This document shows, piece after piece, positions 27,930-29,513 of a stretch of DNA of 33,506 nt. The notes beneath the pieces are model-generated. The model had not been told where the DNA came from. It made no database searches and saw only the letters and a list, made by a program, of their open reading frames with translations. Position numbers and translations under genes: made by a program. This DNA comes from Chitinophaga pinensis (GTDB taxonomy: Bacteria > Bacteroidota > Bacteroidia > Flavobacteriales > Flavobacteriaceae): the NCBI GenBank assembly GCA_943324925.2, contig CALPNL020000002.1, forward strand, positions 1-33,506. Direction: 5' to 3'. Each line of letters starts with the position of its first letter. The first letter of the stretch is position 1.

Positions 27930-28877
27930 CTACTCTTTAGAAGCAATATATCTTTCCGCATCTAAAGCTGCCATACAACCGGTTCCAGCAGCAGTAATCG
28001 CTTGGCGATAAACATGATCTGCAGCATCCCCAGCAACGAATACTCCGTTAATATTTGTTTTAGATGTACCAGGAGTATTTATAATATATCCTGTTTCATC
28101 TAAATTAAGGAAGTCTTTGAATATGTCTGTATTTGGTTTGTGTCCAATAGCGACGAAGAAACCTGTTGCTGGGATATCAAAAATATCTCCTGAAGTTTTA
28201 TTTTTAGCTTTTACAGCGTAAACAACCTGGCCGTCTCCTAAAACTTCTACAGTATCATGATTCATTAATATGGTAATATTTTCCGTTTTACGAACTCTTT
28301 CTTCCATGATTTTGGATGCTCTAAAAGACTCACTTCTAACCAACATAGTCACTTTAGTACAAAGTTTTGACAAATAATGTGCCTCTTCACAGGCTGAATC
28401 CCCTGCTCCAACAATTACTACCTCTTGATTTCTATAGAAAAAACCATCACACACAGCGCATGCAGAAACTCCACCCCCGGTTTGCAAATAATGTTGTTCA
28501 GAAGGTAATCCTAAATATTTGGCTGTGGCTCCAGTTGAAATTATAACCGTTTCACAGTGTAACTCTTTAGTATCATTGATCCATACTTTATGAATATCCC
28601 CAGAAAAATCGACTTTGGTTGCCCAACCATCACGTACATCTGTTCCAAATCTTTGGGCTTGTTGTTGCAATTGAACCATCATTTCAGGTCCTGTAATACC
28701 ATCAACATATCCCGGGAAATTTTCAACTTCATTCGTTGTCGTTAATTGACCTCCTGGTTGTGTTCCTTGATATAAAACTGGTTTCATATTTGCTCTAGCA
28801 GCATAAATAGCAGCTGTATAACCAGCTGGTCCAGAACCTATAATTAGACATTTAATGTTTTCAACCGTATTTGACAT
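27930..28877 (-). CDS. trxB: Thioredoxin-disulfide reductase
   Basis: 'CLIIGSGPAGYTAAIYAARA', redox 'CAVCDGFFYRNQEVVIVGAGDSACEEA', 'VFVAGDAADHVYRQAITAAGTGCMAALDAERY'. Confidence 0.96.
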   Translation of the reverse strand: MSNTVENIKCLIIGSGPAGYTAAIYAARANMKPVLYQGTQPGGQLTTTNEVENFPGYVDGITGPEMMVQLQQQAQRFGTDVRDGWATKVDFSGDIHKVWINDTKELHCETVIISTGATAKYLGLPSEQHYLQTGGGVSACAVCDGFFYRNQEVVIVGAGDSACEEAHYLSKLCTKVTMLVRSESFRASKIMEERVRKTENITILMNHDTVEVLGDGQVVYAVKAKNKTSGDIFDIPATGFFVAIGHKPNTDIFKDFLNLDETGYIINTPGTSKTNINGVFVAGDAADHVYRQAITAAGTGCMAALDAERYIASKE

Positions 28878-28993: not shown

Positions 28994-29023
28994 TTGTTTA
29001 AATAAAAAATAGTTCTATATTTG
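28994..29023 (+). promoter_or_regulatory. Bacteroidota primary sigma promoter of tRNA-Pro
   Basis: TTG (28994-28996), 19-nt spacer, TATATTTG (29016-29023), about 12 nt upstream of the mature tRNA 5' end. Confidence 0.75.
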
Positions 29024-29034
29024 CAGTCGGAAAA

Positions 29035-29109
29035 CGGGGTGTAGCGTAGCTCGGTTATCGCGCCTGCTTTGGGAGCAGGAGGCCGCAGGTTCGAATCCTG
29101 CCACCCCGA
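29035..29109 (+). tRNA. tRNA-Pro (anticodon TGG)
   Basis: Acceptor CGGGGTG/CACCCCG, anticodon arm CCTGC-TTTGGGA-GCAGG, T arm GCAGG-TTCGAAT-CCTGC; CCA not encoded. Confidence 0.95.
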
Positions 29110-29150
29110 CAAAAAAAGCTGAACATTATTGTTTGGCTTTTTTTATTTAT
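29080..29150 (+). repeat. Direct repeat copy 1: tRNA-Pro 3' half (variable loop to acceptor) plus terminator
   Basis: 71 bp AGGCCGCAGGTTCGAATCCTGCCACCCCGACAAAAAAAGCTGAACATTATTGTTTGGCTTTTTTTATTTAT; identical to 29442-29513 except for one fewer T. Confidence 0.97.
29110..29147 (+). terminator. tRNA-Pro intrinsic terminator
   Basis: AAGCTGAAC-ATTATT-GTTTGGCTT stem (two G.U pairs) followed by a T run. Confidence 0.85.
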
Positions 29151-29175
29151 ACAAGCCAATAAAAAAAAAAAACCT

Positions 29176-29418
29176 ATGTACTATGTCTATATTATTTACA
29201 GTGAGTCTACTTCAAAATATTACACAGGTCAAACTTACAATTTGAATAACAGGATTAGAAGACATAACTCTGGATTAAGCAAATCAACTAAATCGAGTTT
29301 ACCATGGAAATTAATTCACCAAATTGAATTTAATTCTAGGTCAGAAGCTATGCAATTAGAAATGTATATAAAAAAAAGAGGTGCTAAAAGATACTTAGAG
29401 AATATAAATGAAATCTAG
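29176..29418 (+). CDS. GIY-YIG nuclease family protein (80 aa)
   Basis: 'MYYVYIIYSESTSKYYTGQTYNLNNRIRRHNSGLSKSTKSSLPWKLIHQIEFNSRSEAMQLEMYIKKR': GIY-like YVYII, YIG-like YYTGQT, catalytic Arg (NRIRRH) and Glu (SEAMQLE) positions kept. Confidence 0.95.
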   Translation: MYYVYIIYSESTSKYYTGQTYNLNNRIRRHNSGLSKSTKSSLPWKLIHQIEFNSRSEAMQLEMYIKKRGAKRYLENINEI

Positions 29419-29426
29419 TTAAAGCG

Positions 29427-29441
29427 TCACGCAGGGCGTGA
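29427..29441 (+). other. Perfect hairpin at the anticodon-arm position of the partial tRNA copy
   Basis: TCACGC-AGG-GCGTGA, immediately abutting the repeat at 29442. Confidence 0.85.
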
Positions 29442-29513
29442 AGGCCGCAGGTTCGAATCCTGCCACCCCGACAAAAAAAGCTGAACATTATTGTTTGGCT
29501 TTTTTTTATTTAT
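29442..29513 (+). repeat. Direct repeat copy 2: tRNA-Pro 3' half plus terminator downstream of the GIY-YIG gene
   Basis: Same 71-bp sequence as 29080-29150 with one extra T (72 bp); lacks acceptor 5' strand, D arm and anticodon. Confidence 0.97.

Follow-up and report, generated by a model that had tools for sequence, protein, structure and literature searches.

Members of the SegB group of GIY-YIG enzymes carry extra DNA-binding domains. In phage T6, the nuclease activity of SegB, a GIY-YIG enzyme encoded in the tRNA cluster, is required for the tandem amplification of tRNA-Tyr together with segB, which runs through recombination between the tRNA sequence and the 3' end of the nuclease gene (PMC13096335), and inheritance of the tRNA region is biased in phage crosses (PMC2988022). 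tRNA genes are also used by genomic islands with tyrosine integrases, in which a carried duplicate of the 3' end restores the tRNA. Palindromes come into play in other systems. The Ssn enzymes, site-specific single-strand endonucleases of Neisseria, are GIY-YIG proteins of the UPF0213/COG2827 type with a palindromic repeat as partner; they are not known for any link to tRNA genes, for tRNA duplication or for arrays. In REP/RAYT and other palindromic repeat systems, small palindromes are likewise linked to a cognate nuclease gene, the enzyme of REP/RAYT being of the HUH type.

The locus compared here with these systems lies in a window (the whole stretch of DNA analysed, 33,506 nucleotides) of a Chitinophaga pinensis assembly, and consists of the following parts:

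27930 to 28877, minus strand: trxB, divergent from tRNA-Pro(TGG)
29016 to 29023, plus strand: promoter-like TAnnTTTG motif TATATTTG upstream of tRNA-Pro, read in the sequence
29035 to 29110, plus strand: intact tRNA-Pro(TGG) gene (ARAGORN; Rfam RF00005, 69.2 bits)
29080 to 29144, plus strand: repeat copy 1, from the tRNA variable loop to the 3' end plus the terminator hairpin (direct repeat, 100% over 65 nt)
29111 to 29144, plus strand: terminator hairpin of the intact tRNA (inverted repeat, then a T run)
29176 to 29418, plus strand: predicted 80-aa GIY-YIG nuclease gene (ORF; PF01541, E=5.5e-17; catalytic columns invariant; dN/dS about 0.12 in the Pro class)
29427 to 29441, plus strand: palindrome TCACGC-AGG-GCGTGA (TCACGCAGGGCGTGA), standing in for the anticodon arm of the truncated tRNA copy (same position in other Pro elements)
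29442 to 29472, plus strand: truncated tRNA copy, 3' part, tRNA positions 46-76 (blast to a tRNA library; repeat)
29442 to 29506, plus strand: repeat copy 2, the tRNA 3' part plus the duplicated terminator (direct repeat)

An earlier note on this DNA had described an intact tRNA-Pro(TGG) followed by an 80-aa GIY-YIG ORF with its catalytic positions, and then a second copy of the tRNA from variable loop to acceptor, with terminator, differing by one T. All of this was borne out: the direct repeat (29080-29144 and 29442-29506, at a spacing of 362 bp) is exact over 65 nt, far beyond chance, and copy 2 has one T more than copy 1. The second copy had been placed directly after the ORF stop, which needs correction, as 23 nt (29419-29441) intervene and hold the palindrome. 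Aligned to the intact tRNA-Pro, the palindrome occupies the position of the anticodon arm, and it is the most informative feature of the truncated copy. An integrase was sought between the repeated tRNA ends and only the 80-aa ORF was found, so that the 362-bp unit indeed holds no integrase or other protein of note; the same applies to the arrays described below. TATATTTG resembles the TAnnTTTG promoters of Bacteroidota, and transcription of the GIY-YIG ORF presumably comes from read-through that starts at this tRNA-Pro promoter. Hereafter, the ORF plus the truncated tRNA copy with its hairpin is called the element, and that hairpin-bearing copy is written tRNA*.

The Pfam GIY-YIG match covers residues 1-71 of 80 and leaves 9 residues after the domain. 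Residues Y5, Y16, G18, R26, H30 and E62 are invariant over 23 diverse members and all are present in the window protein, which has the fold and the conserved Tyr, Arg, His and Glu catalytic residues that define the GIY-YIG superfamily. Together with profile matches to the UPF0213 structures 1zg2 (6.8e-13) and 1ywl (2.8e-11), this identifies it as a GIY-YIG protein of the UPF0213/COG2827 (YhbQ-like) single-domain type. It is thus like Ssn in fold family and in having a single GIY-YIG domain of similar size, and the pairing of element and hairpin recalls that of Ssn and its repeat, but it differs from UPF0213/COG2827 in that an NCBIfam search with the window protein gave no family match. A Pfam search for any domain besides GIY-YIG returned an overlapping T5orf172 alone and no C-terminal DNA-binding domain; the bare 80-aa domain differs in this from the SegB group with its extra domains. 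The closest solved relatives of known activity are DNA nucleases (SLX1). Median dN/dS ranges from 0.08 to 0.16 across all classes, which shows strong purifying selection on the ORF and, by this measure, a functional protein.

With the window protein as query, matches were found in 74 of the 101 genomes of a genus-level set, and a 23-sequence profile matched 190 of 297 Bacteroidota genomes at E<=1e-8, with up to 19 copies each. We surveyed the surroundings in two sets, the first of 144 non-redundant places from the genus-level search and the second of 85 loci from a phylum-wide sample. The association with duplicated tails of the local tRNA, which the earlier note had foreseen for homologues, was found on a large scale: tRNA sequence lies in the flanks, on the same strand, at 127 of the 144 places, and at 77 of the 85 loci an intact same-strand tRNA is no more than 300 bp away from the ORF or array. 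None of the 85 has an opposite-strand tRNA as sole neighbour, and some of the remaining 8 run off contig ends. The phylum-wide set alone represents 22 anticodons. Other GIY-YIG subfamilies, with lower scores in a profile search of 12 genomes, had a tRNA flank at none of about 19 places, whereas high-scoring members do have tRNA. Relatives in Patescibacteria adjoin tRNA-Ser (L034, L038, L041; L039 is from an unclassified bacterium). Plasmid and phage matches to the family were sought and none found, and searches of the literature available retrieved no prior description of these tRNA-linked GIY-YIG elements.

Of the 17 homologues in the first set that are without tRNA, 11 constitute a clade apart, beside palindromic repeats; the rest have decayed or, as in L103, belong to a large protein as one of its domains. 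An Rfam search of the flanks of the homologues without tRNA yielded no partner RNA genes, except for one unrelated Flavo-1. The clade (L079, L085, L097, L104, L105, L110, L114, L115, L122, L123, L124) lies among repeats mostly of the CTGAGCnnAGTCGAAG type, with which it possibly forms a nuclease-repeat pairing of its own. Lone members beside tRNA-His, tRNA-Tyr and tRNA-Leu (L032, L044 and L060) sit on long branches and their class assignment is unsure.

The arrangement of the window had been taken as the layout of the element. It recurs in relatives of form A (intact tRNA, terminator, ORF, hairpin, tRNA 3' half, terminator; the window, L002, L008, L010), but elsewhere the layout is often tandem or mirrored. 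In the mirror form B, the tRNA 5' half is followed by the hairpin, the ORF and the intact tRNA (L003, L005, L026, L043, Patescibacteria), and in L003 and L005 the breakpoint is at the same place in the tRNA as in form A. The ORF stop codon lies inside the D-arm sequence of tRNA* in several classes (L008, L013, L037). Tandem arrays of 2 to 6 units with a 315-370 bp period are common, and the nuclease gene is present in every unit. Decay is also seen: some family copies carry stop codons, and ORF-less tRNA* remnants occur at the same locus as the window element (L143, L144, L148, L150, L154). In some truncated tRNA-Pro copies (L007 of G036, L143, L144, L148, L150) a further palindrome, of the TCCCGA..TCGGGA type, stands in place of the T-loop, so that one copy can hold two palindromes.

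The duplicated tRNA 3' end is the classic footprint of an island, and the locus could be read as what is left of an att site, from a tyrosine-recombinase genomic island at tRNA-Pro. We find this hardly credible and rejected it, as there is no integrase in the unit, tandem units each have a nuclease gene, the 5' half is duplicated in the mirror form, the copy holds a palindrome and the family-wide pattern contradicts it. The unit, of about 350 bp, is also unlike such islands in its size and its tandem arrays.

In its commonest form, the palindrome of the truncated copy is an exact replacement of the anticodon arm (tRNA positions 28 to 45). For tRNA-Pro, in both forms A and B, copies with both sides preserved lose their similarity to the intact gene at position 28 and regain it at 46. 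The 27/28 and 45/46 breakpoints recur in Val, Ala, Pro(TGG), Pro(CGG) and Arg(TCT), with fewer cases in others, and breakpoints lie elsewhere in Met (37/48), Phe (56/62), Asp (mainly 51/60) and Arg(TCG) (22/23). The GIY-YIG enzyme and the location of the palindrome inside tRNA copies distinguish the elements from REP/RAYT.

A swap of hairpin for arm keeps the geometry of the arm, Val-class copies still fold as 'tRNA-Lys' for ARAGORN, and the ORF lies within the tRNA transcript in both forms. These traits would suit a host-serving RNA system, in which the arm-swapped truncated tRNA would be a functional RNA (a decoy, a processing signal or an antitoxin-like partner) of an RNA-acting nuclease. 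We regard such a system as very improbable: the window copy is without the acceptor 5' strand and the D arm, and can thus form no cloverleaf, the mirror form retains the 5' half only, the nearest solved relatives of known activity cut DNA, and presence is patchy. ARAGORN also calls the hairpin-swapped copy, or similarity to it, tRNA-Lys(TTT) at L098, L109, L116, L117 and other Val/Arg-class loci, and calls of this kind in Bacteroidota genomes probably reflect errors of annotation.

The proteins fall into lineages that correspond to tRNA genes. On a tree of 136 proteins, built from 76 columns and hence with few strongly supported forks, tRNA identity changes 17 times (the minimum being 13), against 94 when shuffled, with 0 of 200 shuffles as low. 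There is one change each for Asp, Phe, Arg(TCG) and Arg(TCT), and two each for Ala, Met, Val and Asn. The clustering of proteins by tRNA identity is not in doubt. For SegB, no such clade-by-clade specificity and no duplicated hairpin-swapped tRNA copy have been reported. Two separate lineages of the protein occur at tRNA-Pro. Lineage I, which includes the window, has TCMCGC hairpins; lineage II (L089, L095, L108) is nested with Val/Arg(TCT) and has no TCMCGC but the Val-type TCCCGAT stem, which indicates that the sequence of the hairpin follows the protein and its position the tRNA. Neither the palindrome nor the mirror form, the tandem arrays or this tracking of protein lineage rather than tRNA had been noticed in the earlier note.

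The chief rival to a reading in which the tRNA gene is cleaved is one in which the hairpin is the substrate: an Ssn-like nuclease would recognise the palindrome, probably as single-stranded DNA, with a role in recombination or DNA uptake, and the tRNA fragments would serve only as homology for integration. The Val-type stem of Pro lineage II, where the palindrome tracks the protein clade and not the tRNA, argues for it, and so does the sister GIY-YIG clade among palindromic repeats without tRNA. Stems also change in a paired way, as in the Asn class (TCCCGATAG/CTATCGGGA, CCCCGATAG/CTATCGGGG, GTTCCGATAG/CTATCGGAAC); since the palindrome finder lists perfect stems only, this variation is suggestive and not a formal covariation test. 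Furthermore, TCCGCC..GGCGGA palindromes are commoner elsewhere in the genome when a Met-type element is present (mean 4.9 versus 1.06, p = 2e-5, phylogeny not controlled). Against this, the TCMCGC palindrome occurs just 3 times in the genome of the window, and the TCCCGA palindromes, of which some relatives have 60-138 copies, proved in the cases examined in G013 to be part of a larger repeat, mostly Flavo-1 RNA. The latter result weakens the dispersed palindromes as proof of a mobile repeat family, and because of it the Met/TCCGCC correlation is kept only as support. A hairpin substrate alone would also leave unaccounted for the tie between protein clade and tRNA and the exact replacement of a tRNA segment. 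We think it unlikely that the hairpin is the whole explanation, although the palindrome may be what the nuclease really acts on.

In the Flavo-1 RNA (RF01705) repeats of G013 (L276, L277, L279, L287, L288, L292), the terminal stem is a TCCCGAT-loop-ATCGGGA palindrome, and several of these copies have exactly TCCCGATGAAAAATCGGGA, the anticodon-arm replacement of tRNA-Ala* in the same genome. At L293 (G042:C1:398592), the palindrome TCCGCCGCGGCGGA lies in the loop of a terminator-like hairpin. Taken together, L293, the tRNA arms and Flavo-1 hint that the palindromes settle at hairpin tips.

Empty tRNA-Pro sites, which the earlier note expected in close relatives, exist in the nearest ones, G035 and G086 (trxB 97% and 96% identical, respectively), where trxB, tRNA-Pro, terminator and response regulator follow one another with no element. 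A profile search of both genomes (drafts, 85-88% complete) for any family member found none. In G095, which has two tRNA-Pro(TGG) genes, the one on the trxB side is empty and the element is found at the other, within a Ser-Pro-Arg cluster; its GIY-YIG protein is about 93% identical among G062, G089 and G095, and the elements of G062 and G089 sit by trxB. At the DNA level the ORFs of G062 and G089 are 90% identical, and their trxB genes 80%. Over 11 genomes, protein and trxB distances are uncorrelated (Mantel r = 0.33, p = 0.11, falling to r = 0.03 once the two most distant genomes are left out). Judged by these distances, the divergence of the protein is decoupled from that of the neighbouring gene, and there are signs of horizontal movement. 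The patchy distribution, with intact, decayed and empty alleles besides these signs, is that of SegB-type homing genes.

One may nevertheless ask whether the history was a passive one, in which an old tandem tRNA duplication trapped a GIY-YIG gene, and all that followed was vertical descent with decay and unequal crossing-over, without any mobility driven by the nuclease. In Flavobacterium, most elements of one class share the same chromosomal locus, and ordinary recombination can expand direct repeats of such length; for classes kept at one locus (Ala, Asn), vertical inheritance with loss is possible. As an account of the family, we judge a passive history improbable. More than 20 anticodons and numerous tRNA loci show the same architecture, clades correspond to tRNAs, and the hairpin replacement is precise across different classes. 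The decoupling from the neighbour gene, the other tRNA-Pro locus in G095 and the strong purifying selection on the ORF also argue against it.

We consider it probable, with some reserve, that we are dealing with a selfish, integrase-free, tRNA-specific micro-element, which spreads and expands through recombination that its GIY-YIG nuclease provokes between tRNA copies, in a SegB-like manner. In this explanation, we infer the DNA cleavage of the tRNA gene, the recombination route and the role of the hairpin. The sole gene, read through from the tRNA promoter, would encode a minimal GIY-YIG nuclease that provokes DNA breaks within or beside the tRNA gene, at the anticodon arm for Pro, Ala, Val and several Arg classes. 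Repair would proceed by homologous recombination with an element copy, whose flanking tRNA fragments, two parts of one and the same tRNA, act as homology arms. It would leave an intact tRNA gene and an added unit, in which the ORF is accompanied by a truncated tRNA whose broken arm has become a palindromic hairpin. Recurrent events between tRNA copies would build tandem arrays, and loss would produce remnants and empty sites. The hairpin would most likely be the structure that the nuclease recognises or cleaves, or else a cleavage-proof replacement of the target. Nuclease-provoked recombination would account for the tie of lineage to tRNA, the fixed break with its hairpin, the retention of an intact tRNA and the arrays.

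The likeness to SegB of T4 and T6 lies in a GIY-YIG gene embedded among tRNA genes, although SegB is phage-borne and the element here chromosomal. In its presumed working, the element may be likened to a free-standing homing endonuclease, yet we do not class it as one, as the extra DNA-binding domain is missing and cleavage is a presumption. The earlier note had proposed a minimal element whose nuclease homes into tRNA-Pro while the carried tail preserves the tRNA. The minimal element stands, with its tRNA association, its empty sites, the signs of horizontal movement and of more than one lineage on the same tRNA species, and no copies found on plasmids or phages. Simple homing with self-immunity is incomplete as an explanation, as an intact tRNA is always beside the element: the arm is replaced in the element's own tRNA copy, yet the adjacent tRNA gene retains the presumed target, and self-cutting must then be weak, single-strand-specific or regulated. 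An activity that is weak, restricted to single strands or limited by read-through would resolve this immunity problem. A bare catalytic domain without a C-terminal DNA-binding domain of the Seg/I-Tev type leaves sequence-specific recognition unexplained, which counts against nuclease homing, and the single-locus classes in Flavobacterium and the breaks outside the anticodon arm in Met, Asp, Phe and Arg(TCG) are further points against recombination provoked by tRNA cleavage. One might combine the two substrates, as the tRNA arm, a hairpin when single-stranded, could be the ancestral target.

The arrangements across Bacteroidota have the look of a hitherto undescribed family of selfish parasites of tRNA genes, and there is a substantial chance that their mode of propagation is new in kind. 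More tentatively, and with rather more doubt than conviction, we suggest phylum-wide integrase-free mobile elements, one lineage per tRNA gene, which would propagate by swapping arm for hairpin while one working tRNA is kept, a mode of mobility (a structure-directed nuclease plus host recombination between tRNA copies) without a described bacterial equivalent. The family is common in Bacteroidota and sited in essential genes, and it accounts for spurious tRNA calls and unusual tandem repeats of tRNA in their genomes. As a natural set of minimal nucleases that are closely related and have at least 12 different DNA partners, it is also useful for studying the specificity of a bare GIY-YIG domain. 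If the mechanism holds, a very small selfish element (about 350 bp and one 80-aa protein) would be exploiting conserved tRNA genes as universal homology arms.
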